Shown one piece after another: positions 9,014-24,595 of a stretch of DNA of 64,000 nucleotides (its first letter is position 1; the number at the start of each line of letters is the position of its first letter). Source of the stretch: an uncultured Poribacteria bacterium. GTDB lineage: Bacteria > Poribacteria > WGA-4E > PCPOR2b. The translations under genes and the position numbers were made by a program. The notes under the pieces were generated by a model. That model worked only from the letters and a program-made list of their open reading frames with translations, did no database searches and was not told where the DNA came from. Where the stretch lies: positions 3,443,623 through 3,507,622 of the forward strand of contig OY282444.1 in assembly GCA_958296125.1 (NCBI GenBank), given 5' to 3'.

Positions 9014-9104
9014 CCAACCGCTAGCTTCCAATCAGCTAGGGTGGTTGGGAGACCTGCACCATCTTGGGCAACTCCGTAAAGCATTTGGCGTTTTATTGGC
9101 AGCT

Positions 9105-9119
9105 GTTCAAAATCTGAAC
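9105..9119 (+). promoter_or_regulatory. Inverted repeat, candidate enhancer-binding-protein site (copy 1)
   Basis: GTTCAAAATCTGAAC: perfect 5-bp arms around a 5-bp centre, about 200 bp upstream of the sigma-54 promoter at 9308. The identical 15-mer occurs at 24371-24385 upstream of the second sigma-54 promoter. In both cases a TTTGCACAATA stretch follows shortly after. An additional inverted repeat GTTACCA...TGGTAAC occupies 9177-9201 here only. Confidence 0.5.
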
Positions 9120-9307
9120 GCTGCTGTTAGACATTTGCACAATATTCGGTATTTTATACTAAATCCGATCACTATTGTTACCAAGATTGCTGCGTGGTAA
9201 CCAGCGACGCTGTTCCTTCCCGGGTCCTGTAACCACAGTGCCCCAGAATTTATATCAATAAAGGGTACCTCCTAACTACTTTTGAGATTTCAGCGATATT
9301 TTTTATA

Positions 9308-9324
9308 TTGGCACAAAGATTGCG
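9308..9324 (+). promoter_or_regulatory. Sigma-54 (-24/-12) promoter of the first DUF4159/PD40 cassette
   Basis: TTGGCACAAAGATTGCG has GG at 9310-9311 and GC at 9322-9323, separated by the invariant 10 nt, and fits the TGGCAC-N5-TTGC consensus of RpoN promoters. The expected start of transcription is about 9335, giving a leader of about 140 nt before the ATG at 9478. The gap 8833-9477 holds this promoter, its upstream inverted repeats and three dispersed repeats. Confidence 0.7.
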
Positions 9325-9477
9325 CAACACGCAGTCACATTTACCTCAAAAACCTGCAACCGAGTCAGTTTTGAGGATCGTGGTTCCTCTGAGCATTTCG
9401 TTAAGGCAGAAAAGGCGACTCCTTTCCTGCTTTGTACGGAACTACAAGCCAATGATTCGCTTAAGGAGGTTACCCCC

Positions 9478-11097
9478 ATGAAATCTCATCACAAGTACCG
9501 CTTCTGGCTCATCTCTTTGGTGGTACATCTATGCCTCGCGATTGTCTGCAGCGTCATCATTATCAATCAAACCACTCCGCGCGCTGTTGACACCTTAGAC
9601 GTGAGCATTTTCAAAGTTAAACCGCTCCCGCCTGTGAAGAAAATACCACATATCCAAGCACCTACTGTCGCGCCGGCACCTACGCCTAATTTCCAAATCA
9701 CGCCACAGTCAGCGTCGACACAGCCCCGGGCTCTGACAACCCATCCGGTGAAATCTACCTCCGTATCTGTGACGAAAGCTATGGCAGTGGATGCCCCAGT
9801 TACTCAGTCTCCGAGGCGATCTGCACGCACCAAAATTTCTGTCCAAGGGGTTTCTCAATCCTCTCGTATCAATCACCTTCCTACCCAACCACTTGCCACC
9901 GCTGTCGATCTCCCCCCTCAGCCAGATACTCCGTTAACCGCAGGACTGAGCGGGGACAGTTCGCTTCCTAACGGTATTGACGAAGGAGGGAGTAGCGGGG
10001 TTGGACGGGGTGCCTTCAGTTCGGGAAGTGGTGTGGATCAGAGGCGAGTCCGAGGCCGTGCTAGTCTGACTTCACTAGTCGCCGCCGAAGGAACGGCAAA
10101 CATTGATGACACCCTTTCTGATGTCACCGAAAAGGTAACGCTGGGGGGTGGGGTGCCTGAACTCCCGCCTAGAACTCCCGGTGCTATCGTTGTGGGGCGC
10201 GGACGGGATATTATAGGACGATTAAACCTTGTCCGCTTTGAAGATCCCCTTCATCCCAATGCGGATATATGCGGTAATGGTATCGGAAATATCCGATTTG
10301 GGGCAGGTCTGTCCTATCTCGTGCAATCACTGAATCAAAAAACTCAGATCAAAACACAACTTGTCGATGCTGTCCAAATGAAGGATGCTGCATTCTTTCA
10401 GGCACCGATTCTTTTTATGGAACCGATACCCGGCGGCTCAAGGGTGAGTCCAGAACATCTGAGGAAAGTATACTATTCTCACAGCAATCCAATTTGGAAT
10501 ACTGTGCGTCCGGATGGATTAAATAAGTACACTGACGTTGAACTCCAAAGACTGCGAGAGTATGTGATCAATCGTGGCGGATTCATCTATATCTTAACGC
10601 ATGGGAATACGGATAGCGTAATGAAAGGCACCAAAAAGCTGCTTCGGAGTATCCTGCCGGAGCATCAACTCGGCCTTATTCCCAATAATCACCCGATTTA
10701 CAACACCTATTACCCGCTAAATGGTCCCTTGCGTTTTCCGTTACGCAAGATTGTGTCTGCAGGCGGACATGGCATCCCCCTTCACTTCGGTCCCTATTCC
10801 GAATTGCAAGGTATCACTATCGATGGACGGCTCGCTGTCTTAGTGGATACCGAACAGATGATGCATGTGATCGATGGCGGGGTTCAAAAACCCTTTTACG
10901 GCAAGTTCCGAAATCAGAATCAGGTTCTAGAAGAATACGCGCCTCACGCAGCACGGCAACTGATCAACATTGTCATCTATGCCATCACACATGGGAATAT
11001 TTCGGATTACAGCAACTACATTCCCGAAACAGTTTTGAAAAATTCTGGTGGCGGCAGCTTGCGGAAAAAAGCACCAAATGTCATACAGAAATTGTAA
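9478..11097 (+). CDS. TonB-like anchored DUF4159 protein, copy 1
   Basis: The protein has 539 residues with a perfect ribosome site (AAGGAGG) and ATG. One N-terminal membrane helix (about residues 9-29, YRFWLISLVVHLCLAIVC) leaves the rest outside the inner membrane. A Pro/Ser/Thr-rich stretch (about 45-160) and a Gly-rich stretch (about 160-235) resemble the linker of TonB-like proteins. The C-terminal ~275 residues match DUF4159, recognised by YTDVELQRLREYVINRGGF, a LPEHQL..IPNNHPIYNTYY block and GITIDGRLAVLVDTEQ. DUF4159 has no established function and resembles a class-I glutamine-amidotransferase fold. Cys265 (ADICGNG) is the position read as TGA in copy 2. It is first gene of a sigma-54-driven two-gene operon. 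Confidence 0.8.
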   Translation: MKSHHKYRFWLISLVVHLCLAIVCSVIIINQTTPRAVDTLDVSIFKVKPLPPVKKIPHIQAPTVAPAPTPNFQITPQSASTQPRALTTHPVKSTSVSVTKAMAVDAPVTQSPRRSARTKISVQGVSQSSRINHLPTQPLATAVDLPPQPDTPLTAGLSGDSSLPNGIDEGGSSGVGRGAFSSGSGVDQRRVRGRASLTSLVAAEGTANIDDTLSDVTEKVTLGGGVPELPPRTPGAIVVGRGRDIIGRLNLVRFEDPLHPNADICGNGIGNIRFGAGLSYLVQSLNQKTQIKTQLVDAVQMKDAAFFQAPILFMEPIPGGSRVSPEHLRKVYYSHSNPIWNTVRPDGLNKYTDVELQRLREYVINRGGFIYILTHGNTDSVMKGTKKLLRSILPEHQLGLIPNNHPIYNTYYPLNGPLRFPLRKIVSAGGHGIPLHFGPYSELQGITIDGRLAVLVDTEQMMHVIDGGVQKPFYGKFRNQNQVLEEYAPHAARQLINIVIYAITHGNISDYSNYIPETVLKNSGGGSLRKKAPNVIQKL

Positions 11098-11212
11098 ATT
11101 GCTGGTTAAACATCAAACAAGGGTGGGGAAAGATTGAAGGAATCGTAAACTGATTCTTTTGCTTCATGAAATGTCTTCCCTCGCCATCTCATGAAGGTTT
11201 AACACCTCACAT

Positions 11213-11232
11213 TTTGCCAGTGGGCAAATTTT
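11213..11232 (+). promoter_or_regulatory. Attenuator-like hairpin between cassette genes
   Basis: TTTGCC-AGTG-GGCAAA followed by TTTT. The stem is short. A related hairpin with G-U pairs occurs before the second lipoprotein copy (about 15550-15570). An additional 8-bp inverted repeat CTTCATGA/TCATGAAG (11162-11169/11189-11196) precedes it in copy 1 only. Confidence 0.3.
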
Positions 11233-11248
11233 GAAAGGAGAAAGTGGC

Positions 11249-11260
11249 ATGTTTATCTAG
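11249..11260 (+). other. Minimal leader ORF (MFI-stop) with strong ribosome site
   Basis: AAAGGAG is followed 6-7 nt later by ATG TTT ATC TAG, 43 nt upstream of the lipoprotein ATG and out of frame with it. The lipoprotein ATG has no Shine-Dalgarno of its own. The second cassette keeps the same ribosome site and the same 43-nt spacing, but its leader runs 40 codons. This suggests translational coupling or reinitiation. Confidence 0.35.
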
Positions 11261-11291
11261 CACTGTCGGATAAACGCACCCACGAATTCTT

Positions 11292-12965
11292 ATGGCTACC
11301 CCAATTCGTTACTCCTACCTTGGTCTTTTTGCTTGGGCACTGTTTGTACTTTTTATCGGTTGTGGTGATGATGAAGATAACGCTTTCGTTCCGGAGATTG
11401 TGGTAACACCGGAAGGAATTATCAAAGGAACCATTACAGATTTGGTTACACAGCAGGGTGTCATAGATACCCGCGTTGTATTGGTCACAGAGAAGAAAGT
11501 CCCAGGCGGCGATATCGAGCAGGAAGATGTCGCCTCAACAACCACCGATGCCAGCGGAAACTTCATATTTGAAGAACTCAAAACTGGCGAATATGTCCTG
11601 AAAATCACTGCCCGCGGTTATCTGGGTCAACAAGCACCGGTAGAAGTCACCCGCAAAGCACCTGCAACCGTCAATTTTCGTCTTGAACCCGGTGTCAGGT
11701 TTAGAGGCACGGTGATTTCTGATGACAGCAACACCGTCGGGAATGTTCTCATCTCTTTGGGTGAACGTGCCGCAGTTACGAACTCCTGGGGACAATATGA
11801 AATTGCACCAGTTTCCAAGGGGCGATACGATTTGACTGCGGAAAAGCCGGGCTATCACACGACACGCATACCGGGTATAACTGTCGGCGATAGCGATGTC
11901 TCGCGAAAGATCTCTATTGAACGCAAGGTGAGGGGGCAAATTGTCTTCGCACGTGGAGATGTTGCTGGCAAGGATTTTTTTGGGATTTCAGTGATTAACG
12001 CAGATCGCACAGGTGAAAAGCCACTGACACATCTGTCCGACGCACAGCCTACTTGGTCACCTAATGGCAGGGAAATTATCTTCAGTCGTTCAGAAAATAG
12101 TGGCCTACCGCAAATCTATATTATGGATAGTCGTGGGAGTAACATAAGACCTATCAGCGGAGACCATTTCAATGATCGGCACCCGGCTTGGTCCCCTGAT
12201 GGTCGGCGCATCGCCTTTGTTCACGCGCGAACCTTGGGGCAGCCAGCGATTTATACCATGAATGCGAACGGAGGGAATCGCGTTAGACTGTCCGACTGCC
12301 ACGTAGACTCTAGGCCCACATGGTCGCCTGATGGGACTCAGATTGCCTATACCCATGCGCTCCAGCAGGGAGGGAACCGGAATCTTTTTGTGGTGGACAT
12401 TGATAGATTTCTCGCCGCCAAAGAGGCACCCCCAACGAAAGCAGTACTGGAACCGGAGCCAGAACCAGAACCGGAGATACCACAAAAGCCAGAACCGGAA
12501 CCGGAGCCAGAACTAAAACCCGAACCAGAGCCAGACCCGCATCAAACGCCAGATAAGGAGAAAAAGGAGGATGATCAACTCAAGGCACCGAGTGCCGATT
12601 CACCGGCATTAACAGATGGCATTCAACGTTTGACAAATAGTTCAAACCACGATATCCACCCGGATTGGAGTCCGGATGGATCGAAATTGATCTTTACCAA
12701 GGAAAGTTCTCCATCCATTGCTGCATTCAGTGCTGCGGTGTATATTCTGGATCTGTTTTCGCTGCGTCAAATCCGCTTGACCAAGGAGGAAGGTTATAAC
12801 GGCTATCCGTGTTGGTCTCCTGACGGAACGAAGATTGTTTTCAGCAGCAATCGCAACGGCAGCTTCGGTATCTGGGTTATGGATGCGGACGGCAGCAATG
12901 CAGCCCTCATTTTCGATGAGTTGAGCCAGGATGATATTCTCAGCCAGCACGCGTGGCGCGAGTAA
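11292..12965 (+). CDS. Lipoprotein with CarboxypepD_reg-like and PD40 (TolB-like) repeats, copy 1
   Basis: The protein has 557 residues. The signal peptide ends in a lipobox (LFIGC), so it is probably a surface or periplasmic lipoprotein. Two carboxypeptidase-regulatory-like beta-sandwich domains follow (about residues 43-115 and 133-200; TTTDASGNFIFEELKTGEY, YEIAPVSKGRYDLTAEKPGY). Then come WSPDG-type PD40 propeller blades (about 255-370), an acidic Pro-Glu repeat linker (about 388-430) and two or three more PD40 blades to the end. PD40 propellers of the TolB kind bind partner proteins, and the neighbouring DUF4159 protein is the obvious candidate partner. The start codon lacks a ribosome site (see the leader at 11249). 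Confidence 0.8.
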   Translation: MATPIRYSYLGLFAWALFVLFIGCGDDEDNAFVPEIVVTPEGIIKGTITDLVTQQGVIDTRVVLVTEKKVPGGDIEQEDVASTTTDASGNFIFEELKTGEYVLKITARGYLGQQAPVEVTRKAPATVNFRLEPGVRFRGTVISDDSNTVGNVLISLGERAAVTNSWGQYEIAPVSKGRYDLTAEKPGYHTTRIPGITVGDSDVSRKISIERKVRGQIVFARGDVAGKDFFGISVINADRTGEKPLTHLSDAQPTWSPNGREIIFSRSENSGLPQIYIMDSRGSNIRPISGDHFNDRHPAWSPDGRRIAFVHARTLGQPAIYTMNANGGNRVRLSDCHVDSRPTWSPDGTQIAYTHALQQGGNRNLFVVDIDRFLAAKEAPPTKAVLEPEPEPEPEIPQKPEPEPEPELKPEPEPDPHQTPDKEKKEDDQLKAPSADSPALTDGIQRLTNSSNHDIHPDWSPDGSKLIFTKESSPSIAAFSAAVYILDLFSLRQIRLTKEEGYNGYPCWSPDGTKIVFSSNRNGSFGIWVMDADGSNAALIFDELSQDDILSQHAWRE

Positions 12966-13071
12966 AACGCAGTAGCCTATATCTCAAAAAAATAATAATT
13001 AGGATGAATCGGGTAACTACAGCAGAGACTCCCTACGGAAATGCGTAAGTTCTAATTAGATTTCAAACCCA

Positions 13072-13104
13072 AGCACCGCTGTTTAGCGGTGCTTTTTGGG
13101 TTTT
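13072..13104 (+). terminator. Rho-independent terminator after cassette 1
   Basis: A perfect 9-bp stem AGCACCGCT-GTTT-AGCGGTGCT (13072-13093) is followed by a T-rich tract, 107 nt after the lipoprotein stop. It closes the first DUF4159/PD40 operon and insulates the second copy. Confidence 0.85.
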
Positions 13105-13212
13105 ATGGCAATCCAATCGACAGACTCATACTATCTGAAAGATCATTCACCTGTGTCGCGCTACAGTGTCTGGTACATCAAGCCAAGATTATAACGTAAT
13201 CTTCCAGCCTCC

Positions 13213-13259
13213 GATGTAGGCCCCCCCCTCCCCCCGCTTGCGGGGGGATTAAAGGGGGT
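13213..13259. repeat. G/C-run hairpin repeat, copy 1
   Basis: GATGTAGG, then a C-run, CCCCCCG-CTTG-CGGGGGG, ATTAAA and GGGGG. The inverted complement of the same arrangement lies at 54372-54417, including the GATGTAGGCCCC arm, so this is a dispersed hairpin element and not simple low complexity. Confidence 0.5.
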
Positions 13260-13474
13260 ACCACCTGCGAGGGGATTAGAGGAAGGTCATTCTACCCGCC
13301 AAAATGCCCTAATGCTTCCTGTTAAAAGGTTGTATTTCTAACAAGAATGTGCTATAATTCCGTTCAAACAAAAGTGGGTGAATGGCGGCTGACCAAGCAA
13401 TGGGTGGCATTATTTGCTTTGACTGCTCCCAAGCATAAATGCTTGGGATTCCTATGATAGACTGACCAGTAGCA

Positions 13475-13496
13475 GTCCGTGCCGAGACCAGGGTTG
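13475..13496 (-). repeat. 18-bp dispersed repeat (inverted copy, 22-nt arm)
   Basis: GTCCGTGCCGAGACCAGG followed by GTTG. It pairs with 13533-13554 to form a long potential hairpin. Confidence 0.55.
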
Positions 13497-13532
13497 CCCT
13501 GTGCTATCTGCTTGCTTCAACGATTCGAGCCT

Positions 13533-13554
13533 CAACCCTGGTCTCGGAACGGAC
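13533..13554 (+). repeat. 18-bp dispersed repeat (direct copy, 22-nt arm)
   Basis: CAAC followed by CCTGGTCTCGGAACGGAC, with one mismatch to the consensus. It is the second arm of the hairpin with 13475-13496. Confidence 0.55.
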
Positions 13555-13580
13555 TACTGAGGGCTTACCGAATCTCCACA

Positions 13581-13598
13581 CCTGGTCTCGGCACGGAC
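13581..13598 (+). repeat. 18-bp dispersed repeat, exact consensus copy
   Basis: CCTGGTCTCGGCACGGAC, the third copy inside element B. Confidence 0.6.
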
Positions 13599-13813
13599 AG
13601 CGTTTAACGTCTCCGAGTGCCCCTCGGCGACGATAACTCAACCCGTTCACTTCGTTGTTTCTACTACACGCTTCAGGAGAGTATGATATAATCGTATCAC
13701 ATTTTTTTACTATGGATGTAATAAAAAACTACGCTGTTTGACCCAATGTTAAAACATTGGGCTTGTGAGAATTACTGTCAAAAGCCAATGATTCGCTTAA
13801 GGAGGTTATCCCC

Positions 13814-14614
13814 ATGAAATCTCATCACAAGTACCGCTTCTGGTTCATCTCGCTAGTGATACATCTATGCCTCGTGATTGTCTGCAGCGTCATCATTATC
13901 AACCAAACCACTCCGCGCGATGTTGATGCCTTAGACGTGAGCATTTTCAAAGTTAAACCGGTGCCGCTTGTGAAGAAAACACCACAGGTCCAAGCACCTA
14001 CTGTCGCGCCGGCACCTACGCCTAATTTCCAAATCACGCCACAGTCAGCGTCGACACAGCCCCGGGCTCTGACAACCCATCCGGTAAGATCTACCTCCGT
14101 ATCTGTGCCGAAAGCCGTAGCAGTAGATGCCCCGGTTTCTCAGCCTCCGACACAATCTACGCATACCGAAATTTCTGTTCAAGGGGTATCTCAATCCTCG
14201 CGTGCCAATAACCAGCCTGCCCAATCGCTCGCCACTGCTGTCAATCTCCCTCTCCAGTCAGATGCCCCGTTAGCTGCAGGATTGAGCGGAAACAATTCAC
14301 TTTCTGGCTCCGGCAGTATTGGCGAAGGAAGTGGTAGCGGTGTTGGGCGTGGAGCCTTCAGTTCAGGAGGCGGTGTGGGTCAGTCACGGACAAAGGGCCG
14401 TGTTGGGTTGACTTCACTAGTCACCACCGAAGGGAGTGCCAATATTGATGACACCCTTTCCGATGTCACCGAAAAAGTAACATTGGGGGGTGAGGTGCCT
14501 GAACTCCCCCCTGGAAGTCCCGGGGCTATCGTTGTGGGCCGCGGACGAGATATCATGGGACGATTAAACCTTGCCCGTTTTGAAGACCCCCTTCACCCAA
14601 GCGCAGATATATGA
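13814..14614 (+). CDS. TonB-like anchored DUF4159 protein copy 2, N-terminal part up to in-frame TGA
   Basis: This shares the first copy's ribosome site, start and membrane helix (YRFWFISLVIHLCLVIVC), Pro/Ser-rich linker and Gly-rich linker. After 266 residues the frame meets TGA at 14612-14614, exactly where copy 1 has TGC for Cys265 (ADIC in copy 1, ADI-stop in copy 2). If translation ends here the product is a membrane anchor plus linker with no DUF4159 domain. If the TGA is read through, the frame continues to 15433 and the total length is 539 codons, equal to copy 1. The upstream 45 bp are near-identical to copy 1, but the sigma-54 region is missing. Confidence 0.65.
   Translation: MKSHHKYRFWFISLVIHLCLVIVCSVIIINQTTPRDVDALDVSIFKVKPVPLVKKTPQVQAPTVAPAPTPNFQITPQSASTQPRALTTHPVRSTSVSVPKAVAVDAPVSQPPTQSTHTEISVQGVSQSSRANNQPAQSLATAVNLPLQSDAPLAAGLSGNNSLSGSGSIGEGSGSGVGRGAFSSGGGVGQSRTKGRVGLTSLVTTEGSANIDDTLSDVTEKVTLGGEVPELPPGSPGAIVVGRGRDIMGRLNLARFEDPLHPSADI
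14612..14614 (+). other. In-frame TGA at a cysteine position
   Basis: One base change (TGC to TGA) relative to copy 1. Downstream, the frame is open for 273 codons and aligned with copy 1 without frameshift. A short hairpin TCGGA-AATT-TCCGA follows about 15 nt later. The Cys-containing copy has an equivalent hairpin, so it is not specific evidence for a selenocysteine insertion element. Confidence 0.7.
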
Positions 14615-15433
14615 GGCAGTGGTGTCGGAAATTTCCGATTTGGGGCAGGTCTGTCCTATCTTGTGCAATCACTGAATCAAAAAACTCAGATCAAAACGCA
14701 GCTTGTCGAAGCTGTCCAAATGAAGGATGCAGCGTTTTTTCAGACACCGATTCTTTTTATGGAACCGATATCCGGGGGCTCAAAGATAAGGCCAGAACAC
14801 CGCCAGAGAGTGTTCAACTCCCACAGTAATCCACTCTGGGATACTAGGCGTCCGGGTGGATTAAGTAAGTACACTGATGCTGAAGTCCAAAGGCTGCGAG
14901 AGTATGTGATTAATCGTGGCGGATTCGTTTATATAGCAACGCATGGGAATGCGGATAACGCAATGAAAGGCACGAGAAAGGTGCTGCGGGCCCTCCTGCC
15001 AGAACATCAACTCGGCTTTATTTCCAATGATCACCCAATTTACAACACCTATTACCCACTAAATGGTCCCTTGCGCTTTCCGTTGCGTAAGGTCGGGGCT
15101 TTTGGACATGCCATCCCTCTCCACTTTGGGCCTTATTCCGAACTGCAAGGTATCACTATCGATGGACGGCTTGCCGTTTTAGTCGATACCGAACAGATGA
15201 TACATGTAATTGATGGCAAAGTTCAGAAACCCTTCTACGGCAAATTTCAAAATCAGAATCAGATTCTAGAGGAGTTTGCCCCCCACGCAGCGCGGCACCT
15301 GATCAACGTTGTCATTTATGCTATCACACATGGGAATATTTCGGATTATAGCAACTACGTTCCCGAAACAGTTAAAAACTCGGGTGACGGTAATTATCGG
15401 AAGAAAGCACCAACTGTCACACAGAAATTGTAG
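14615..15433 (+). CDS. DUF4159 domain of copy 2, downstream of the in-frame TGA
   Basis: This frame encodes the complete DUF4159 domain, closely similar to copy 1 (YTDAEVQRLREYVINRGGF, ISNDHPIYNTYY, GITIDGRLAVLVDTEQ). Differences from copy 1 are mostly conservative and no second lesion is present. The first possible independent start is a GTG at 14663, without a good ribosome site, so separate translation is doubtful. The region is either the tail of a read-through protein or a recent pseudogene half. Confidence 0.55.
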   Translation, partial: GSGVGNFRFGAGLSYLVQSLNQKTQIKTQLVEAVQMKDAAFFQTPILFMEPISGGSKIRPEHRQRVFNSHSNPLWDTRRPGGLSKYTDAEVQRLREYVINRGGFVYIATHGNADNAMKGTRKVLRALLPEHQLGFISNDHPIYNTYYPLNGPLRFPLRKVGAFGHAIPLHFGPYSELQGITIDGRLAVLVDTEQMIHVIDGKVQKPFYGKFQNQNQILEEFAPHAARHLINVVIYAITHGNISDYSNYVPETVKNSGDGNYRKKAPTVTQKL

Positions 15434-15586
15434 ATTTCTGTTCAAACATCAGCCAAGAGTGGGAGGAAGATTGAAAGAATCGAACGCTTGATTGCCTTGT
15501 TTCTTGAACTACCTTCCACTACTGTCTCATTAAGGTTTAACACATCACATTTTGTCAGCAGGCGAATTTTGAAAGGAGGAAGTGGT

Positions 15587-15709
15587 ATGTTCATCAGGCC
15601 CCGCCGGATAAACGTACCCACAAATTCTTATGGCGAACTTAATCTGTTACTCCTGTCTCGGTTTTTTTGCTCTGGCTCTGTTCACATTTTTTGTCGGTTG
15701 TGGTGGTGA
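15587..15709 (+). other. Leader ORF overlapping the start of lipoprotein copy 2
   Basis: AAAGGAGG precedes ATG at 15587. The frame encodes 40 residues (MFIRPRRINVPTNSYG...) and ends at 15709, overlapping the first 80 nt of the lipoprotein gene in another frame. The distance from leader ATG to gene ATG (43 nt) is the same as in cassette 1, where the leader stops after three codons. Confidence 0.35.
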
Positions 15710-17297
15710 TGACGACGTTGTTGATACCGGTGCCGAGGCTGTGGTATTACCGGAGGGAATCGTCAAAGGAGTCATTACAGATTTGGTCACACAGCAGGGG
15801 ATCGCAGGTGTCCAAGTCACATTGGTGATGGATAAGAGAGTCCCAGGCGGCGATATCGAACAGGAAGAGGTCGCTTCAACAACTACCGATGCCAGTGGAA
15901 TCTTCATATTTGAAACGATCAAAACCGGGGAATATACCCTGAAGATCAATGCCCCTGGTTACATAAACCAACAAACGGTGACAAAAGTCACTCGCAAAGA
16001 GCCTGCAACCGTCAATTTCCGCCTTGAACCCGGTGTCAGATTTAGGGGTACGGTGATTTCTGACGATGGCAATACTGTGAAGAATGTCCTTATTTCTTTA
16101 GGTGAACGTGCGACAGTTACGAATCCTGGGGGACACTATGAAATTGCCCCGGTCTCCAAGGGACAATACAATCTGACTGCGGAAAAGCCGGGCTATCACA
16201 CGACACGGATACCGGGTGTCACTGTCGGCGATATCGATGTCTCGCGAGAGATCTCTATTGAACGCAATGTGAGGGGACAGATTGTTTTCGTGCGTGGAGA
16301 TGTTGCCAGCAAGGACTTTTTTGGGATTTCAGTTATCAACGCAGATCGCACAGGCGAGAAACCGTTGACACATCTCTTCGATGTACACCCCTCCTGGTCC
16401 GCTAATGGTGAGGAAATTGTCTTCAGTCGCTCAGAAAACAACCGGCCACTACAAATCCATATTATGGATAGCCGTGGGGGCAACACAAGACCTATCAGCG
16501 GAGACCATTTCAATGATCGGCACCCGGCTTGGTCCCCTGAGGGCCGTCGCATCGCCTTTGTTCACGCGCGAGCCTTGGGTCAACCAGCCATTTACACCAT
16601 GAATGCGAACGGAGAAAATCGGGTTCGACTTTCCGACTGCCACGCAGATTCTAGGCCCACATGGTCCCCTGACGGTACTCAGATTGCCTATACCTATGCA
16701 CTGAAGGAAGGGATCCGGAATCTTTTTGTGGTGGACATTGATACATTTCTCGCCGCCAAGGAGACCCCCCCTACGAAAGTAGAGGTGGAACCGGAGCCAG
16801 AACCGGAACCAGAAATACCACAGGAGCCAGAACCGGAACCAGAGGTGCCACAAAAGCCAGAACCGGAACCAGACCCGAATCAAACACCAGATGATGAGAA
16901 AAAGGATGGGGAGGGCGATCCACCTCAGGCACCGAGTGCCAATCCACCAGCAATCGGAGAAGGGATTCAACGCTTGACAACGAGTGCCAACCACGATATC
17001 CACCCGGATTGGAGTCCGGATGGATCGAAATTGACCTTTACCAAGGAGGCCTCCCCGTTAGATGCTGCGGTGTATATCCTGGATCTGTTTTCGCTGGTTC
17101 AAACCCGCTTGACCAAGGAGGAAGGTTACAACGGCTATCCCTGTTGGTCGCCTGACGGAACGAAGATTGTCTTCAGCAGTAACCGCAACGGCAGTTTGGG
17201 CATCTGGATTATGGATGCGGACGGCAGCAATACGGCTCTTATTTTCGATGAGTTGAGTCAGGATGATATCCTCAGCCAGCACGCGTGGCGCGAGTAA
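15630..17297 (+). CDS. Lipoprotein with CarboxypepD_reg-like and PD40 repeats, copy 2
   Basis: The 555-residue paralogue of the 11292 gene has the same domain order: lipobox (FFVGC), two carboxypeptidase-regulatory-like domains, WSPDG/WSANG PD40 blades, an acidic Pro-Glu linker and terminal PD40 blades ending in DILSQHAWRE in both copies. The reading frame is intact, which contrasts with the TGA-interrupted partner gene just upstream. The signal peptide n-region lacks Lys/Arg, unlike copy 1. No terminator of the copy-1 kind follows it. Confidence 0.8.
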   Translation: MANLICYSCLGFFALALFTFFVGCGGDDDVVDTGAEAVVLPEGIVKGVITDLVTQQGIAGVQVTLVMDKRVPGGDIEQEEVASTTTDASGIFIFETIKTGEYTLKINAPGYINQQTVTKVTRKEPATVNFRLEPGVRFRGTVISDDGNTVKNVLISLGERATVTNPGGHYEIAPVSKGQYNLTAEKPGYHTTRIPGVTVGDIDVSREISIERNVRGQIVFVRGDVASKDFFGISVINADRTGEKPLTHLFDVHPSWSANGEEIVFSRSENNRPLQIHIMDSRGGNTRPISGDHFNDRHPAWSPEGRRIAFVHARALGQPAIYTMNANGENRVRLSDCHADSRPTWSPDGTQIAYTYALKEGIRNLFVVDIDTFLAAKETPPTKVEVEPEPEPEPEIPQEPEPEPEVPQKPEPEPDPNQTPDDEKKDGEGDPPQAPSANPPAIGEGIQRLTTSANHDIHPDWSPDGSKLTFTKEASPLDAAVYILDLFSLVQTRLTKEEGYNGYPCWSPDGTKIVFSSNRNGSLGIWIMDADGSNTALIFDELSQDDILSQHAWRE

Positions 17298-17522
17298 AAC
17301 GTGGGTCTAATCGATTTGCAGTTACCATCTATCAGCAAAGACGAAAAAGACAAAATTATGGGGGGCACCGCGTTGAAGATTTGGTTCAAAAAAGAGAATT
17401 GAGGGGGCAGGACGGGCAAGATTGGGATAGGAGTTTGAACTCTGGTATAGGGGAGCCGATTCATCGGAGGACACGGAACTCCTTCGATGAACCGACGGAA
17501 CTGTGTGTCAGGTGTGTAAATC

Positions 17523-18308
17523 CTATTCAAGCAATTCCCTAGGGATACGAGAGCCCAGGTATTCCTGATTCGGATCGCGGTTGGCAATGATCTCAGGGAT
17601 ATTGTCCTCCCAATTGTCGGGCACTGTCATGGGACGCTTATGCCACGCTAAAATTAGGGTTCGTCGATGGTCTGTCAGGTTCCGGTGCGCTGAATGCAAG
17701 ACCCGGGCATCCGCCAAGACGAGTGCCCCCGCCGAAACGAAGACATCTACCTGATCCGGATGATCGCTGAACATGATCGGGTGGTCCTCTTCAATAAATC
17801 GAGCCCCTTGTTCGTGGGCTGGGACCAATTGATCGTGCAGCGGAATGCGTTTGAGATGGGTGCCGGGGATAACTTTGAGACATCCGTTTTCAACCGTTGT
17901 ATCGGTCAGGTAGTAGGACAGGAACATGGTCTGAGGCCATGGCGAACAACTCATTGGATCATTCCATAGCATCCAATCCTGATGCCAATAGAGCGCGGGT
18001 TCTTCAGGATCTTTAGTAAGAATAATAATCCCCCCAGTGCTCTCGAAATCTCCAAAGCCCATCTGCTCAAGTGCTCGGCGCGATGGTTGCCAATCCAACA
18101 GCTTCTGGATGATTGGGTTGTCCGCACCCCGCACGCCCACATGCTGCCCTTGATACCTTACGTCAGGGGGCGGCTCATGCCCAGCGATCAAGTGCTCCGA
18201 TTCTTCTCGGAGTTCCTGTAAAAAGGCTTCAGTTAAGATATTGTCTACCACGCAGTAGCCATCGCGCATCATTTGTTCCCGCTTTTGCAGGGCTACTTCT
18301 GGTGTCAT
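17523..18308 (-). CDS. Phytanoyl-CoA dioxygenase (PhyH) family protein 1
   Basis: The ATG at 18308 follows AGGAG by 6-7 nt and gives 261 residues; an upstream in-frame ATG at 18359 lacks a site. PhyH enzymes are Fe(II)/2-oxoglutarate dioxygenases. The His-x-Asp iron ligands are in YWHQDWMLW, and the distal His with the 2-oxoglutarate Arg is in VLHSAHRNLTDHRRTLILAW. It is followed on the same strand by two uncharacterised paralogues and lies close enough (80 nt) to share a transcript with them. The natural substrate is unknown; bacterial members hydroxylate diverse small molecules. Confidence 0.85.
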   Translation of the reverse strand: MTPEVALQKREQMMRDGYCVVDNILTEAFLQELREESEHLIAGHEPPPDVRYQGQHVGVRGADNPIIQKLLDWQPSRRALEQMGFGDFESTGGIIILTKDPEEPALYWHQDWMLWNDPMSCSPWPQTMFLSYYLTDTTVENGCLKVIPGTHLKRIPLHDQLVPAHEQGARFIEEDHPIMFSDHPDQVDVFVSAGALVLADARVLHSAHRNLTDHRRTLILAWHKRPMTVPDNWEDNIPEIIANRDPNQEYLGSRIPRELLE

Positions 18309-18387
18309 ACTGTTCTCCTGTGGGTTATTAACATTTCTGTCAATAGAAACGTCATCCAATTACTGAATCTACCGCAAAGCATAAGAT

Positions 18388-19569
18388 TTAAGCCCGCCCG
18401 TGATGCGACTCAGCCGGCGCACGATACTCCACCCGCAGATGCGGGGTTTCCAGACGCTGATGGTTTTGTATCCGTGAAGTCAGGCAACTCTCCAGCATCC
18501 CGCTGACAATCAAGGTGCGCTCTGCCGGGTAAGGGGCAACCCCGGTCATGATCATTTCGACAATCTTGGCAACTAGGCAGGCGGAGTAGGTCACATTGGG
18601 TGTCGGCGGTAGGAAAAACTGCGTGGACACCGGATCCGCCACACCCTTGAGCCGCGCAGCGAAGCAATAGTCTCTGATCGCACCGTTGAGCATGAGTAGC
18701 GTGGTTTGGAGTCCATCGTTGCGTTCGATAAAATAGGCTGCTGGATTTTCGACTAATTTCTGGAGTTCGCCGCTGCCGAGCAAATCCTGAGTCCGACCAT
18801 CTTCTTCCGTCAGTCCACACGGACTGTCACACCGAGAAAGTGCCGCTTCCAAAAGTTCCTTTGACCAACGTCCTGCCTCACCTGCCTCCCACACCGCATC
18901 CCCCTCGATTAATTGTACAGCCTTGACCCCGGGCTCACCACCTTTGCGGCGTTCAACCATGCACTGCATGGCTTCGAGGGCGTGATAATCCATCGGATCG
19001 GAGCCACCGACCCCTACCATCAGGGCACTCTCAATCTCGCAATCAAGGGGCAATTCGATATCTGGCAGGCGCCAAGTTACCGGCAGGGACGAACCGGCGA
19101 GGATTGGGAATTCCAAGCGATGGCCGTCGTCCACCATCTCCTGCGCCTTCTCGAAACTGTAAGAGAGATGTTTATCATTGTAAATTGGAACTGCGCGCCC
19201 GTCCTCCTCAAAAACTTTGACGCACTCCTTGAAGAATTCGTAGCGCGGGTAGAGAACCTGACCTTTTTCGTTTCTTGGGTAATCACCATGCTCACCAATT
19301 AATAACACGGCATCGACAGCAAGTTTATCCCCACCACAGCGCAACGCTTCAGAAATAGTCGGATACACGGAGAAACCGAACTCGCGGGCGCGGTCAGTGG
19401 ATTGATCTCCTTCGGGTGTCTGATCAACGAATAGGGAAACGACTTGGGTATCGGGACGATGCCAGCCCCCCTCGTAGGGGTAGCCAACCATGAAGCGGTC
19501 AGCGAAGTGCTGGGCATGTGACAGGTAGCGATAGATGGTGGCAATCACGGCGATACGTTTGGATGCCAT
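18388..19569 (-). CDS. Uncharacterised protein, tandem paralogue A
   Basis: The protein has 393 residues and an AAAGGAG ribosome site. I do not recognise an established domain. It starts with a Rossmann-like strand (RIAVIATIYRYLSHAQHFADRF) and carries conserved blocks DAVLLIGEHGDYPRNEKGQ, YEFFKECVKVFEEDGRAVPIYNDKHLSYSF, ILAGSSLPVTWRLP, DYHALEAMQCMVERRKGGE and a late APYPAERTLIVSGMLE. All recur in the next gene, so the two are tandem duplicates. No signal peptide or membrane helix is visible. The conserved His, Asp, Glu and Tyr residues in GEHGDYP and NDKHLSY could form an active site. Confidence 0.7.
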   Translation of the reverse strand: MASKRIAVIATIYRYLSHAQHFADRFMVGYPYEGGWHRPDTQVVSLFVDQTPEGDQSTDRAREFGFSVYPTISEALRCGGDKLAVDAVLLIGEHGDYPRNEKGQVLYPRYEFFKECVKVFEEDGRAVPIYNDKHLSYSFEKAQEMVDDGHRLEFPILAGSSLPVTWRLPDIELPLDCEIESALMVGVGGSDPMDYHALEAMQCMVERRKGGEPGVKAVQLIEGDAVWEAGEAGRWSKELLEAALSRCDSPCGLTEEDGRTQDLLGSGELQKLVENPAAYFIERNDGLQTTLLMLNGAIRDYCFAARLKGVADPVSTQFFLPPTPNVTYSACLVAKIVEMIMTGVAPYPAERTLIVSGMLESCLTSRIQNHQRLETPHLRVEYRAPAESHHGRA

Positions 19570-19590
19570 TTGCGTGTTTCTCCTTTAAAA

Positions 19591-20784
19591 TCAGGTCCTC
19601 CAGAAAGTCGATTCTTCCGTCGGCTGATAAGAAATATTTAAGTGCGGCGTCTCCTGCTGCGTCTGCCCTTGAAAGAGACTCTCAACCCCGGCAGCAACCA
19701 ACCCGGTAGTAAGCAGCGTACGTTCAACCGGATAGGTCGCCGCTCCGCTCAGGAACATCTTTTCAACATTGTTGACCAACGGCGAGAAGAAGTTAGCAAG
19801 GGTCGTGCGGGCTGGAGGCATCGGCAGGTACATCTGTGTGGACAATGGGGCATCCTGATCGTCGAGGTGAGCGGCGAAGTTGAAATCCTGCACCAGCCCG
19901 TTCATAAGAATCATAGTCGCTTTGAGACCGTCCAAGTGTTCGTATTGGTAGGCGATTGGGTCTTCAACCAGTTGCTTCATTTCGTCCAAGGTTGGAAAGA
20001 TATTGTTGAACCCTTGGCGTGAAGGGGTGAGGGTGTGACTGCGGCAGAGAGAGGCTTCAAACAGTTCACGCGACCACAATTCTTCGTGATGCGCCTCCCA
20101 GAATTTGTCACCGCGGTAGGCTTGCAGCCACTTGACACCTTTTTCGCCGCCTTCGCGGCGCTCTACCATACACTGGATGGTTTCTAGGGCATGGAAGTCG
20201 TAGCTGTCAACGCCCCCAATCGCGATACATAGTGCCTCTCGGACGCGGGCACCCAACGGCATGTCAATGGACGGGGTGCGCCAAGTCACCGGCAGGGACG
20301 ACCCCGACATGAATGCAAAGCCCATCTCTTGAGAGATGTCGTACATCTCTCGCGCCCAATCCCAGCTCCAAGAAAGATGCTTATCGTTGAAAATGGGCGC
20401 AGTGCTGCCGGTAGTGCTGTAGACCGAGACAATCTGCTTGAAAAACTCGTAGCGTGGGTAGAGATGCTGCCCCTTCTCGTTGGAGGGATAGCTACCGTGC
20501 TCGCCGATCAGTAGGACCCCATCAACGGCAAGCTTGCTGCCTCCCAAGGTCAAGGCATCCGCGATAGTCGGATAGATTTTCATCTGAGGGAAGCGTTCCG
20601 CACGGTCACGGCTCAAGTCGCCTTCAGGTCGCTGGTCAACGTAGAGTGAGACCAGATCCATTGGCGGGCGGTGGTGCCGACTGTTCCAGCCATACCCCCC
20701 CAAGAAACGGTCAGCGATGTGCTGGCCATGGGAATACTTACGGTACTCTGTGACGATTGCCGCAATTTTGGGGCGCTTAATCAT
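19591..20784 (-). CDS. Uncharacterised protein, tandem paralogue B
   Basis: The 397-residue paralogue of the 18388 gene lies 21 nt upstream of it. Shared blocks are VTEYRKYSHGQHIADRFLGGY, VSLYVDQRPEGDLSRDRAE, GVLLIGEHGSYPSNEKGQ, FNDKHLSWSWDWA, SGSSLPVTWRTP, YDFHALETIQCMVERREGG and TYPVERTLLTTGL. The complete conservation of these blocks between divergent copies argues that both are functional. The pair followed by PhyH on one strand suggests a three-gene operon. No function is proposed. The gap 20785-21045 shows nothing else. Confidence 0.7.
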   Translation of the reverse strand: MIKRPKIAAIVTEYRKYSHGQHIADRFLGGYGWNSRHHRPPMDLVSLYVDQRPEGDLSRDRAERFPQMKIYPTIADALTLGGSKLAVDGVLLIGEHGSYPSNEKGQHLYPRYEFFKQIVSVYSTTGSTAPIFNDKHLSWSWDWAREMYDISQEMGFAFMSGSSLPVTWRTPSIDMPLGARVREALCIAIGGVDSYDFHALETIQCMVERREGGEKGVKWLQAYRGDKFWEAHHEELWSRELFEASLCRSHTLTPSRQGFNNIFPTLDEMKQLVEDPIAYQYEHLDGLKATMILMNGLVQDFNFAAHLDDQDAPLSTQMYLPMPPARTTLANFFSPLVNNVEKMFLSGAATYPVERTLLTTGLVAAGVESLFQGQTQQETPHLNISYQPTEESTFWRT

Positions 20785-21045
20785 AGTGCGAATATCCTTT
20801 TAATCGATATATAACGGTTTCGTATAATTACGTGGAAAGATTACACCAATTTCCAAATCAAATCAAGCAAAAAGGGAATGTCATTCACCACCAAAACTGA
20901 TGTTCTCACCTATGCGCTTGTGATAGATTATAATCTGTTTGAACAGGGCTGCCGCACTCTTCTCCGAGTGTGGGGACTGGGCTACAAACCAGAGTCATAT
21001 CCACGTTGAAAACTTCCGACCACAAAAAAATTAAAAACAACATCA

Positions 21046-21804
21046 TCACCGATATTGCTCCAGATCCCCCCGGTATTCCAGCCCCAGCACACGACGTGCC
21101 CGCTCCACATTGCAGGTCTTATCTGCTTCGGGGGTGCCCACAATATGGAAGATATCGAAGCCGATTGTCGTGGACTCTATCGCCAGACGACAGGCTTCTG
21201 CCAGATCATGCCGACACACGCATCCATTCCGCACCGGCGTGCCCTCAGCCCCCAGTTTCTCCCGATGCCTTCCAATTCCCAATCGACTATCTACGATATA
21301 ATCCGGACGCAAGACGATAATGCGCGACCCATACGCATCGTAAAACTGTCGGCACATCTCCTCCTGCAAACGCTTGCAAACCGCGTACTGACTGCCATCG
21401 GGTCTTCTGACATCCGCCGTGAAAAATATCCCCTTGGGGTGCACTGTCTGGCATGAGCCGATGTGCACCACCCGCTTGATACCATGCTGCCGTGCGGATT
21501 CCAGCACATTCCACAAACCCTTCAAATTGACCAAGAACGGCTGCGGATCATCTACGCCGTATCCTCCGAAATAGACTGCAAGATGAATAACCGCGTCCAT
21601 TCCCTCTACGGCGTTGTGAACAGCGGAGAAGTCCACAATATCCCCGTGGATAAGCTCCCCCTCCTGCCATTCGCCATCAATATCCTTCCACCCTTTCCAT
21701 GGCTCCGGTCCGCGATCAAAGGCGCGAGCCTGATGTTTGCCAGCCAAATTGGCAAGCACAGCCCGGCCTGTCCAGCCGGCTGCGCCGAATACCACAACCT
21801 TCAT
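21046..21804 (-). CDS. NAD-dependent epimerase/dehydratase (extended SDR)
   Basis: The protein has 252 residues. The N terminus VVVFGAAGWTGRAV is the extended-SDR GxxGxxG motif, followed by DIVDFSAV (acidic adenine contact) and DAVIHLAVYFGGYG. The catalytic YAVCKRLQEE segment supplies Tyr-x-x-x-Lys and the HIGSCQ segment its Ser. It is shorter than typical sugar-nucleotide epimerases (about 310-340), so a substrate-binding C-terminal part is reduced. It lies 22 nt downstream of the secreted protein at 21827 on the same strand. Confidence 0.82.
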   Translation of the reverse strand: MKVVVFGAAGWTGRAVLANLAGKHQARAFDRGPEPWKGWKDIDGEWQEGELIHGDIVDFSAVHNAVEGMDAVIHLAVYFGGYGVDDPQPFLVNLKGLWNVLESARQHGIKRVVHIGSCQTVHPKGIFFTADVRRPDGSQYAVCKRLQEEMCRQFYDAYGSRIIVLRPDYIVDSRLGIGRHREKLGAEGTPVRNGCVCRHDLAEACRLAIESTTIGFDIFHIVGTPEADKTCNVERARRVLGLEYRGDLEQYR

Positions 21805-21826
21805 TCGTTCTATTCCTTTCGCAATC

Positions 21827-22633
21827 CTATCGGACTACCCTTGATTTCAGTCGCCCCCAGGTGGTCGTCAACTTGCCTTGCGCCTCTACGGCAAAAGGAT
21901 TCTTTTCAGGTTCAGTCACAAACACATCGTCTACCTCGATTGCCGCCTCTTGAGTCCCAAAACCGATGCGTCCCCTGCCGCTTAGGTTGAAATCCTTAAC
22001 GTCAACGAGGGGCGGCCCGTAATCCCCCGAAACTGCTGCTACGCCATTATCTGTGAGAAAGAAACGGTAGCCTTTCGGGTGATTTTCGATTTTAATCCAA
22101 TAGTCTGTGCCTCTATCAAGCTTCGTTTTGGTCTCAGTTTTGGCATATTCTTGGGTAACATGCCGTATATGCCGATGCACGACAGATCTTTTTCCCTCCC
22201 TGTTCAGTGCCCAATAAATAACATGACGGCTCAAACTCTCTTGCATCCGAGGGGGCAAAGCCTCTTTACCACCAAAGCCGGCACCTTCATCGCTGTGAAA
22301 ACGCCAAACGATGAGCGGACTCTCGCCTGCTGCGAGTTTGACTGTTGAATAAAACCAATAGTCATTCCACGCTTCATCCCAATGCCCATCGGATACCAAG
22401 ATGAGATTCTTGCCATTTCGTTGGTTCTGCACTAACTGGCCATTTTCAACCCTCCACGCGCCAGAGACGGTATGCCATTTCCCCGTACCGTTCAACTTGT
22501 CTTTTGACTTATCAAAAGTATCTTCAAACAAGATTTTCTGGGCTTGAGTCAAACTTGGTGGGATAAGGACGCTCGCCACAATCGATACCACCGTGAGAAT
22601 CCATTGTTTTTGAGAATTTTTCTTGTGACACAT
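21827..22633 (-). CDS. Secreted concanavalin-like (DUF1080/LamG-type) protein
   Basis: The ATG at 22633 has a perfect AAAGGAGG (22641-22648) and gives 268 residues. A signal peptide is clear (MCHKKNSQKQWILTVVSIVA..., ending TQAQ). The mature part opens ILFEDTFDKSKDKLNGTGKWHTVSGAWRVENG in shorter recognisable blocks, and later has DRGTDYWIKIENHPKGYRF and GRGRIGFGTQEAAIEVDDV. This is the pattern of the concanavalin-type sandwich found in 3-keto-disaccharide hydrolases (DUF1080) and LamG proteins. It is extracytoplasmic and probably carbohydrate-related. Active-site residues cannot be assigned. Confidence 0.65.
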   Translation of the reverse strand: MCHKKNSQKQWILTVVSIVASVLIPPSLTQAQKILFEDTFDKSKDKLNGTGKWHTVSGAWRVENGQLVQNQRNGKNLILVSDGHWDEAWNDYWFYSTVKLAAGESPLIVWRFHSDEGAGFGGKEALPPRMQESLSRHVIYWALNREGKRSVVHRHIRHVTQEYAKTETKTKLDRGTDYWIKIENHPKGYRFFLTDNGVAAVSGDYGPPLVDVKDFNLSGRGRIGFGTQEAAIEVDDVFVTEPEKNPFAVEAQGKLTTTWGRLKSRVVR

Positions 22634-22837
22634 GGTGAATCCTCCTTTCAATTTTACCAGCAAAATAGGGAAGCCTCATATAAACGCTTCGGAAACGTGT
22701 TCATAGAATTCTATGTAAAAGTATACCCTATTATCCCCCCAGTTTCCAATACGATCTGAACGATATAGCCGTTTTTAATGAAACTTACCGATTTGGACAG
22801 TGTGTTATCCTTTAAATTGTAAGGGAGGTCAAAAAAA

Positions 22838-24355
22838 ATGAAAGCGAATGTACCCCAAACACACGGTGTCGTTCTCACCTGCATACTCGCCTTTGGCATA
22901 CTCCAACATGCTGCATCGGCGGCAGATGAACGACAAACATTGCAAGCACTCAGCAAAAGTTTTACCGTGCTCGCACAGGAAGTTGGAGAAACGGTTGTTG
23001 GAATTGAAACTGAGCGATCAGACGAAGACAGAGATCGGGAGCCCCGCTTTGAACGTCGCGGCAAATCTGAAGGGTGGGAATCGTTCGGTCCGGAATTTCG
23101 TCGTTGGTTTCGCCGAAACTCAGACCGGGGTGAAAAGTCGGAAGATTATTTTTTCTATCCTGACCCGCATGGGAAAAGACGAGAGCGGGGGCGTAATGTG
23201 ATACCTGAAAATATGTTCCCACACAATTCCCCGGATTACACTAATTTTGGATCTGGCATCCTGCTTGATGAACAAGGGCACATTGCCACCGTTATCGAAT
23301 TGGTCGATGATAGCGAGGAGATTACAATCACGCTTCAGGATAGCACACGCCTTGAGGCCGAAGTGGTTGCATCTGACGAAGGGACGGGGATTGCTGTGCT
23401 CAAAGTTGATGCCGACGCGCTTCCGACGACGAAATTTGGTGATTCGGATGCCGTTGCCATCGGTGAATTAATGCTTGCACTCGGGCATACCGCGGATCAG
23501 GAGCCTGCGATTTCTTTGGGAATGATTAGCGGCGTTGGACGCAACCCGCATATCGTCGATTATGAAAACTGGCTCGCGATTGACGCGAATCTGCGCCCCG
23601 GTTCGGGTGGCGGTGCAATTGTCAGCGCAAAAGGTGAAATCATCGGCATGAGCGTTGGCAGCCCATCGAACAGCGCGTTTGCCATTCCGATTAACACGGT
23701 CAGGCACGTTGCGACAGAGCTGATCGAACATGGCAAAGTCGCGCGCGGCTGGCTCGGCATTTCAATTCAGGAGATTGATTCAGATCTGGCTGAGAAACTG
23801 GGTTTGGATAAACCGATGGGTGCCCTGATCACCGGTATCTTTGATGACACACCCGCTGAAGAATTTGGCTTACAAAAAGGTGATGTAATCGTCGCTATTA
23901 ACGTCGAAGCGATCAGGGATGTTAATCATCTGCGCGCTGCAGTTGCCATGTATAGGCCAATGACTACCATCTCGATTTCCATTCTGCGTGATGGTCAAAC
24001 GCAAGATATGTCTGTGACGCTTAGTGAACGGCCCGCACGAGCTCTTCGACATCTCAAAGATGCTGAGGAATATACGGATCTTTGGAAAGGTCTCTCCCTT
24101 CAGGACCTGACAGCTGATTTGGCTGAAAAGTTCGGGCACACTTCCGATGAAGGGGTGTTAATTGCTGGTGTGGCACCGGGCAGTGCGGTTGTCAAGGCGG
24201 GGCTCCGCAGGGGAGACCTGATTCTTGAGGTTGAGAACCAGACCATTCACAGCGTAGAAGAGTTCAAATCGGCGGTGGAGAAGGTGGCAGATGAAGCCAA
24301 AGTCTTGCTACTTATAAAACAGGAGGGGCAGGCACGGTATGTGACCGTCAAGTAA
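22838..24355 (+). CDS. HtrA/DegP-like protein with two PDZ domains and no catalytic triad
   Basis: The protein has 505 residues, with a signal peptide ending ASAADE. A charged segment (about 60-130) leads into a trypsin-like fold from GSGILLDEQGHIATV onward, then PDZ1 (about 300-395, GALITGIFDDTPAEEFGLQKGD) and PDZ2 (about 415-505, GVLIAGVAPGSAVVKAGLRRGD). Compared with the HtrA consensus, all three catalytic positions are replaced: His by Glu154 (TNNHVV becomes TVIELV), Asp by Gly184 (TDLAVLK becomes TGIAVLK) and Ser by Gly257 (GNSGGP becomes GSGGGA). The rest is well kept, so this should be a periplasmic pseudoprotease, perhaps a chaperone or regulator. The ribosome site is GGGAGG. Confidence 0.85.
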   Translation: MKANVPQTHGVVLTCILAFGILQHAASAADERQTLQALSKSFTVLAQEVGETVVGIETERSDEDRDREPRFERRGKSEGWESFGPEFRRWFRRNSDRGEKSEDYFFYPDPHGKRRERGRNVIPENMFPHNSPDYTNFGSGILLDEQGHIATVIELVDDSEEITITLQDSTRLEAEVVASDEGTGIAVLKVDADALPTTKFGDSDAVAIGELMLALGHTADQEPAISLGMISGVGRNPHIVDYENWLAIDANLRPGSGGGAIVSAKGEIIGMSVGSPSNSAFAIPINTVRHVATELIEHGKVARGWLGISIQEIDSDLAEKLGLDKPMGALITGIFDDTPAEEFGLQKGDVIVAINVEAIRDVNHLRAAVAMYRPMTTISISILRDGQTQDMSVTLSERPARALRHLKDAEEYTDLWKGLSLQDLTADLAEKFGHTSDEGVLIAGVAPGSAVVKAGLRRGDLILEVENQTIHSVEEFKSAVEKVADEAKVLLLIKQEGQARYVTVK

Positions 24356-24370
24356 AAGCGGGGTCAGTCT

Positions 24371-24385
24371 GTTCAAAATCTGAAC
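24371..24385 (+). promoter_or_regulatory. Inverted repeat, candidate enhancer-binding-protein site (copy 2)
   Basis: GTTCAAAATCTGAAC is identical to 9105-9119. It lies 86-100 bp upstream of the second sigma-54 promoter and is followed by a TTTGCACAATA stretch, as in copy 1. Confidence 0.5.
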
Positions 24386-24468
24386 ACCGCTGTCAAATAT
24401 TTGCACAATACTTGGCATCTTAATAGAGTTGTGTTCTAATTATTTCAGGCTTTAGCGAGATGTTGGTA

Positions 24469-24485
24469 TTGGCACAAAAATTGCT
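24469..24485 (+). promoter_or_regulatory. Sigma-54 (-24/-12) promoter of the triheme cytochrome gene
   Basis: TTGGCACAAAAATTGCT has GG (24471-24472) and GC (24483-24484) separated by exactly 10 nt. It is nearly identical to the promoter at 9308. The surrounding 60-80 bp also resemble the other site. The predicted transcript start is about 24496, 100 nt before the gene. Confidence 0.7.
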
Positions 24486-24595
24486 CGGTCATTTAATTAC
24501 ATTTGCCTCCAATCAGTTTTGGGAATTGTGGTTTCCCTGAGTATTTTTAATTCGTTTCGAGGTTAGACTGGCACTCGCCTCGCTTATCAACTGGA

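Follow-up and report, generated by a model that had tools for sequence, protein, structure and literature searches.

The window examined here is a 64,000-nucleotide stretch (G000:C1:3443623-3507622) of the genome of an uncultured Poribacteria bacterium, G000, which comprises 5.16 Mb on one contig. The window contains two operons that are each preceded by a palindromic operator and a predicted sigma-54 promoter. The first operon begins with a gene for a DUF4159 protein in a cysteine form (Cys265; 9478..11097, plus strand), which by eye features a TonB-like N-terminus, followed by a gene for a PD40 beta-propeller protein with a CarboxypepD_reg domain (11292..12965, plus strand). The second operon encodes a triheme membrane cytochrome of 298 amino acids (24653..25549, plus strand) with CxxCH motifs at residues 158, 248, and 274. 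The ATG at 24653 is more likely to be the start of the cytochrome gene than 24596, because it is conserved in relatives.

The two promoters of the window

The original prediction placed a sigma-54 promoter with GG-N10-GC spacing before each operon. Both are present, promoter 1 (TTGGCACAAAGATTGC) at 9308..9323 and promoter 2 (TTGGCACAAAAATTGC) at 24469..24484 on the plus strand. They lie between genes, and no other sigma-54 site in the window is free of mismatches (GG-N10-GC, TTGGCA, TTGC). The transcripts are predicted to start some 12 nt past the -12 box, near 9335 and 24496. An identical 15-mer, GTTCAAAATCTGAAC, is found upstream of both promoters at 9105-9119 and 24371-24385, and is followed by the stretch TTTGCACAATA at 9134-9144 and 24400-24410, as had been claimed; the similarity spans the operator, promoter, and leader. 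Scored over 12 consensus positions, operator 1a (TGTTCAAAATCTGAACG, 9104..9120) is a strong site that agrees at 11 and operator 2a (TGTTCAAAATCTGAACA, 24370..24386) is a perfect site. Both are accompanied by a second, degenerate copy 21 bp downstream, GTTAGACATTTGCAC at 9126-9140 and GTCAAATATTTGCAC at 24392-24406, whose full sites, operator 1b (TGTTAGACATTTGCACA, 9125..9141) and operator 2b (TGTCAAATATTTGCACA, 24391..24407), each agree at 9 of 12 positions. The operator sites carry no strand. The TTTGCACAATA stretch overlaps the right half of this degenerate copy, and operator 2b is kept in cytochrome orthologues.

The distance from the start of the palindrome to the -24 box is 203 bp for promoter 1 and 98 bp for promoter 2, a difference of exactly 105 bp, which bears out the claim that the first spacer is about 105 bp longer. 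The cytochrome promoter is conserved in relatives, and the long-spacer form of promoter 1 is conserved in genome G004, where the distance is 202 bp and a PD40 gene follows directly. The inverted repeat that had been noted in the long spacer, GTTACC-N13-GGTAAC at 9177..9201 (no strand), is present in the window, however, it is not kept in G004, which holds the sole orthologous long-spacer promoter found. The repeat was therefore dropped as the site of a second regulator and is probably incidental. A sigma-70-like element, TTGACA-N17-TCTAAT, lies between the operator and the sigma-54 box in cytochrome orthologues (loci L086-L089), and the copy in the window (about 24413-24440) has TTGGCA.

Recurrence, targets, and helical spacing

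The genome search for the palindrome near a sigma-54 box, proposed with the original prediction, returned three exact copies of GTTCAAAATCTGAAC, and the third, at 1713837, is likewise located 89 bp before a sigma-54 box, upstream of the gene for a PD40 protein. Within the genome there are 15 occurrences of the relaxed palindrome GTTCAN5TGAAC, compared with 3 of the reversed pattern. Seven of the 15 (1028391, 1375254, 1713837, 2095090, 3452727, 3467993, and 4904837) feature a strong sigma-54-like box 66-203 bp downstream. Perfect sigma-54 sites, TTGGCAY-N5-TTGC, number 31 against 12 for the control, and the 30 that were examined are bimodal: five combine an operator score of 11-12 with a tandem neighbour scoring 9-10, and the remainder score no higher than 9 for the operator and lack a tandem. 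The other operator-promoter pairs of the genome are unrelated to each other outside the sites. As predicted from these sites, the regulon is made up of at least seven promoters in this genome. This number, the 21-bp-spaced tandem operator, and the equivalence of 105 bp to ten helical turns go beyond the original prediction.

The arrangement was also sought in other genomes. The pattern GTTCAN5TGAAC-N65..95-TTGGCA has matches in 44 of 146 genomes, and in most of the matches within the order a -12 box (TTGC or GTGC) is correctly placed although it is not part of the pattern. Among the matches read from outside the order, none has TTGC or GTGC at the -12 position. A strict pattern of operator and promoter (GTTCA-N5-TGAAC, 65-95 bp, TTGGCA-N6-TTGC) gave 47 matches in 30 of the 73 genomes of the order, with one palindrome read twice, and its reversed control gave no matches in the same 73 genomes. 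The strict matches are confined to families f1 and f3, with none in the five genomes of f2 and f4. These counts are lower bounds, since genome G003 scores zero even though its cytochrome gene is preceded by a sigma-54 box and an operator that is nearly perfect.

Apart from the two operons of the window, the targets in this genome are a TonB-dependent receptor, a BNR/TIG protein, a PD40 protein, and a squalene-cyclase-like repeat protein; an AhpC/TSA protein is less certain because its gene starts 285 nt past the promoter. The targets in relatives include TonB receptors, WD40-like proteins, lipoproteins with a PSCyt1 domain (11 promoters, with two members checked against Pfam), and squalene-cyclase-like proteins, a class that is common to f1 and f3. 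The theme of the regulon would be the cell envelope together with periplasmic electron transfer.

The consensus of the operator, derived from 41 promoters that are less than 80% alike, is T-GTTCA-N5-TGAAC-A. Its ten inner bases were set by the search pattern itself, and only the outer T and A were free to vary. All target classes agree in the half-sites and in the T and A beside them, whereas the five central bases differ between classes. With all offsets from the perfect site tested in 34 promoters, the best were -21 (5.42 matches) and +21 (4.94 matches), compared to a mean of 3.09 with a standard deviation of 0.45, and a weaker echo was seen at -32 and +32. Each promoter tends toward one extra degenerate copy either upstream or downstream, the latter being the case for both promoters of the window. 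A separation of 21 bp is two helical turns and thus places the tandem sites on one face of the DNA.

The distances between operator and promoter are 66, 75/76, 85-89 (most promoters), 95-100, and 203 bp. L207, a DUF4159 gene from a different genus, has a tentative distance of 65 bp, with an operator that agrees at 10 of 12 positions. Distances outside the main class fall near whole turns from it, with a mean cosine of 0.70 at 10.5 bp and a simulated p of about 7e-4 (p 0.012 in an earlier, smaller test), for promoters that are not fully independent owing to shared ancestry and for phase classes that were grouped by hand. In published work on synthetic enhancers, looping follows the helix with a period of about 10.5 bp (PMC4740811).

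RpoN and the proposed activator

Both sites of the window are very probably sigma-54 (RpoN) promoters that are activated from a distance by one NtrC-type enhancer-binding protein. The activator would bind as two dimers to the tandem operator, which consists of the strong site TGTTCA-N5-TGAACA and the weak site 21 bp away, both recognized by their sequence. As is expected for this class of activator, the dimers would seed an ATPase hexamer. The DNA between operator and promoter would then loop, the hexamer would contact closed E-sigma54, and ATP hydrolysis would open the promoter. The phasing described above is the statistical side of the looping step: spacers in whole-turn classes (about 65, 76, 87, 98, and 203 bp) are to be expected because such contact needs a fixed helical face, and the 105-bp excess of promoter 1, being ten turns, leaves operator and promoter on the same face.

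The original prediction would have fallen had the genome contained no rpoN. A complete RpoN, with the activator-interacting, core-binding, and DNA-binding domains (AID, CBD, and DBD), is encoded at 4528513 and is the only complete one of two RpoN-like proteins in the genome. In the second (G000:C1:518910-519308, L009) only the DNA-binding domain was detected, and the activator-interacting and core-binding domains were not. The bacterial enhancer-binding proteins (bEBPs) that had also been called for are represented by 20 strong matches to PF00158. Five of these, at 2410340, 2748846, 1037844, 3726701, and 4269620, are kept in all four genomes compared. The N-termini of the five candidates resemble receiver domains, which Pfam confirms for one.

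None of several routes singled out one activator. Co-occurrence did not select one, as none of the five bEBPs is restricted to operator-bearing genomes, and no operator of tandem quality lies beside the bEBP genes that were scanned. Proximity points to the bEBP at 1037844, which is about 9 kb away from the promoter of the TonB receptor and adjoins a kinase gene and a PSCyt1-domain gene; this is not decisive, since its orthologues adjoin small proteins that by eye are EutN/CcmL-like. The regulon of NtrC proper was set aside because the half-site is TGTTCA and not TGCACC. The best ntrC scores of the three of five candidates that were scanned are 481, 450, and 485 bits, below the curated cut-off of 558.6.

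There are further observations regarding the bEBP genes. A pair of a GAF-kinase and a bEBP is conserved in other families (L146, L166) beside the small EutN/CcmL-like genes, which by eye encode microcompartment vertex proteins, and the copy of this pair in the present genome (1036500-1045000, L230) is found beside a large PSCyt1-LRR-dockerin protein. A separate group of sigma-54 promoters at 2877592, 2879832, and 2884591 is located beside a bEBP gene (G000:C1:2876354-2884606, L103), with CCCCGTTAAAAAC...TTTTGGGG upstream, and probably belongs to another regulon.

The proposal of a single activator is weakened in part by the shared ancestry and manual grouping in the phasing test, and by the fact that the activator is narrowed no further than five candidates. 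Genome G009, from family f2, also speaks against it, in that it has orthologues of all five candidates but no match to the strict pattern; this counter-evidence is only mild, because the strict pattern misses weaker operators such as that of G003. The number of bEBPs, and of those kept in all four genomes, would fit two or more activators that recognize similar operators, in which case the operons of the window would not be strictly co-controlled. The variation of the five central bases between target classes can be read in the same way. Such a division is nevertheless unlikely, given that the half-sites and flanking bases are the same in all classes and that the two operons of the window share an identical 15-mer.

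The sigma-70-like element of the cytochrome orthologues raises a different question, namely whether the palindrome serves an ordinary regulator unrelated to sigma-54, with the cytochrome operon read from a sigma-70 promoter and the sigma-54 boxes being relics. This is very improbable, as the copy in the window has TTGGCA and the element is confined to the cytochrome class, whereas the sigma-54 boxes are kept in all classes. The likeness of operator, promoter, and leader in the two copies might alternatively reflect a promoter segment recently copied as mobile or repeat DNA and having no shared function. Duplication may indeed be the origin of copy 1 or copy 2, however, a likeness devoid of function has hardly any probability, because the other operator-promoter pairs of the genome are unrelated outside the sites and the cytochrome and DUF4159 promoters are each kept in other species. 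Control of both operons by one enhancer-binding activator, as originally proposed, is well supported at the level of sequence by the recurrence of operator and promoter before other genes and in relatives.

The arrangement is of a known type. The NtrC-type enhancers, such as that of E. coli glnAp2, share with it the -24/-12 box, RpoN, tandem sites, and phase-sensitive looping (PMC4740811), and the NtrC box, TGCACCAnnnTGGTGCA, is also a 17-bp inverted repeat with a 6-5-6 layout (PMC8743547). The Poribacteria system differs in its half-site (TGTTCA instead of TGCACC), in its 21-bp tandem of one strong and one weak site, and in its envelope and redox targets. The sigma-54 regulons of Desulfovibrio vulgaris are similar in having many activators, operators predicted from genome comparison, and one regulon tied to multiheme cytochromes (PMC4641369). 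The strings TTCA and TGAAC are absent from the main text of that study, a comparison that does not extend to motifs given only in figures. The literature searched contains no description of a Poribacteria sigma-54 regulon, and its sole joint mention of the two concerns a different bacterium. The type of switch is thus known, and the regulon in f1 and f3, two families of the order, does not seem to have been described in that literature.

The shared leader and a probable selenoprotein

The similarity of the two operons continues into their predicted transcribed leaders, leader 1 (9335..9465, plus strand) and the related, structured leader 2 (24497..24644, plus strand); loci L086-L089, L107, and L222 belong with this shared leader. 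A hairpin is found just after the promoter in both operons and its stem is changed on both sides, GAGGA/TCCTC in one and GGGAA/TTCCC in the other. The leaders of cytochrome orthologues can fold end to end, closing with GCCGGGTCA/TGACCCGGC followed by T6. This terminator-like stem suggests attenuation in the orthologues; its 5' arm is missing in leader 2. The leader model matches one cytochrome leader in each of five genomes of the same genus and two leaders in the present genome, where the match to leader 1 is not independent because this copy was in the training set of the model. The only other new match (E 3e-4) is in G004 (C40), where the leader has diverged in its 3' part. A long-range fold of the leader supported by covariation was rejected, as double changes occur in just 2 of 39 pairs. 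Neither the leaders nor the window match a family in Rfam.

Two copies of the DUF4159-PD40 cassette are present within the window. The second DUF4159 gene (13814..15433, plus strand) is 79% identical to the first and consists of a frame of 539 codons with a TGA at codon 267 (14612-14614), which would make it a selenocysteine (Sec) form; the second PD40 protein is encoded at 15630..17297 (plus strand). The TGA is the only interruption of the second DUF4159 gene, which open reading frame finders split into 13814-14614 and 14663-15433. Neither an operator nor a sigma-54 box is found upstream of it.

Ten DUF4159 genes of nine other genomes (L194-L202, L207) likewise have a TGA that aligns exactly with Cys265; in one of these genomes, G007 (L199), the neighbouring residues are different, which a frameshift may explain. 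Purifying selection is seen on both sides of the TGA, with a ratio of nonsynonymous to synonymous substitution rates (dN/dS) of about 0.32 before it and 0.21 after it. A hairpin resembling the apical part of a selenocysteine insertion sequence (SECIS), with the loop GGTC, is located 33 nt after the TGA (14642..14656, plus strand), and 52-nt hairpin segments have a minimum free energy of -12.3 to -20.2. The hairpin lies within the published limits for bacterial SECIS elements, which a 2026 review of prokaryotic selenoproteins gives as a loop of 3-9 nt with an early G, a distance of 16-37 nt from the TGA, and a minimum free energy of -7.5 or lower (PMC13188914). SelA gives strong matches in this genome and in every other genome compared but G008, which has weak matches only, and SelB, identified by eye, stands beside SelA in the two loci read. 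A tRNA scan that covered only the selAB loci found none there.

These features, a TGA aligned to a cysteine, selA/selB, and a hairpin compatible with a bacterial SECIS, resemble those of bacterial selenoproteins that have cysteine homologues, and the Sec form of DUF4159 is a probable new selenoprotein family on these grounds. A keyword search of the review (PMC13188914) returned DUF and TonB entries from which DUF4159 was absent, and DUF4159 is not named in the literature searched. The notion that the Cys copy is under sigma-54 control and the Sec copy is not is weakened by G006, in which the TGA-bearing gene L207 also seems to carry an operator and a sigma-54 box. It is conceivable, with rather low probability, that an envelope-redox regulon switches on the Cys form of DUF4159 and swaps out its Sec sister form, the form that most of the close orthologues also have, alongside cytochromes and outer-membrane receptors, and that the shared, structured leader RNA adds a further level of control; L207 speaks against a strict swap of this kind.

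For uncultured sponge symbionts, the analysis defines the operator exactly, lists its targets, and narrows the activator to a few candidates. The natural spacers, which range from 65 to 203 bp and are all in phase, constitute a ready set for testing the dependence of bacterial enhancers on the helical face. A Sec form of DUF4159, if true, would add a selenoprotein family and would suggest that this protein, whose function is unknown, has a role in redox chemistry.

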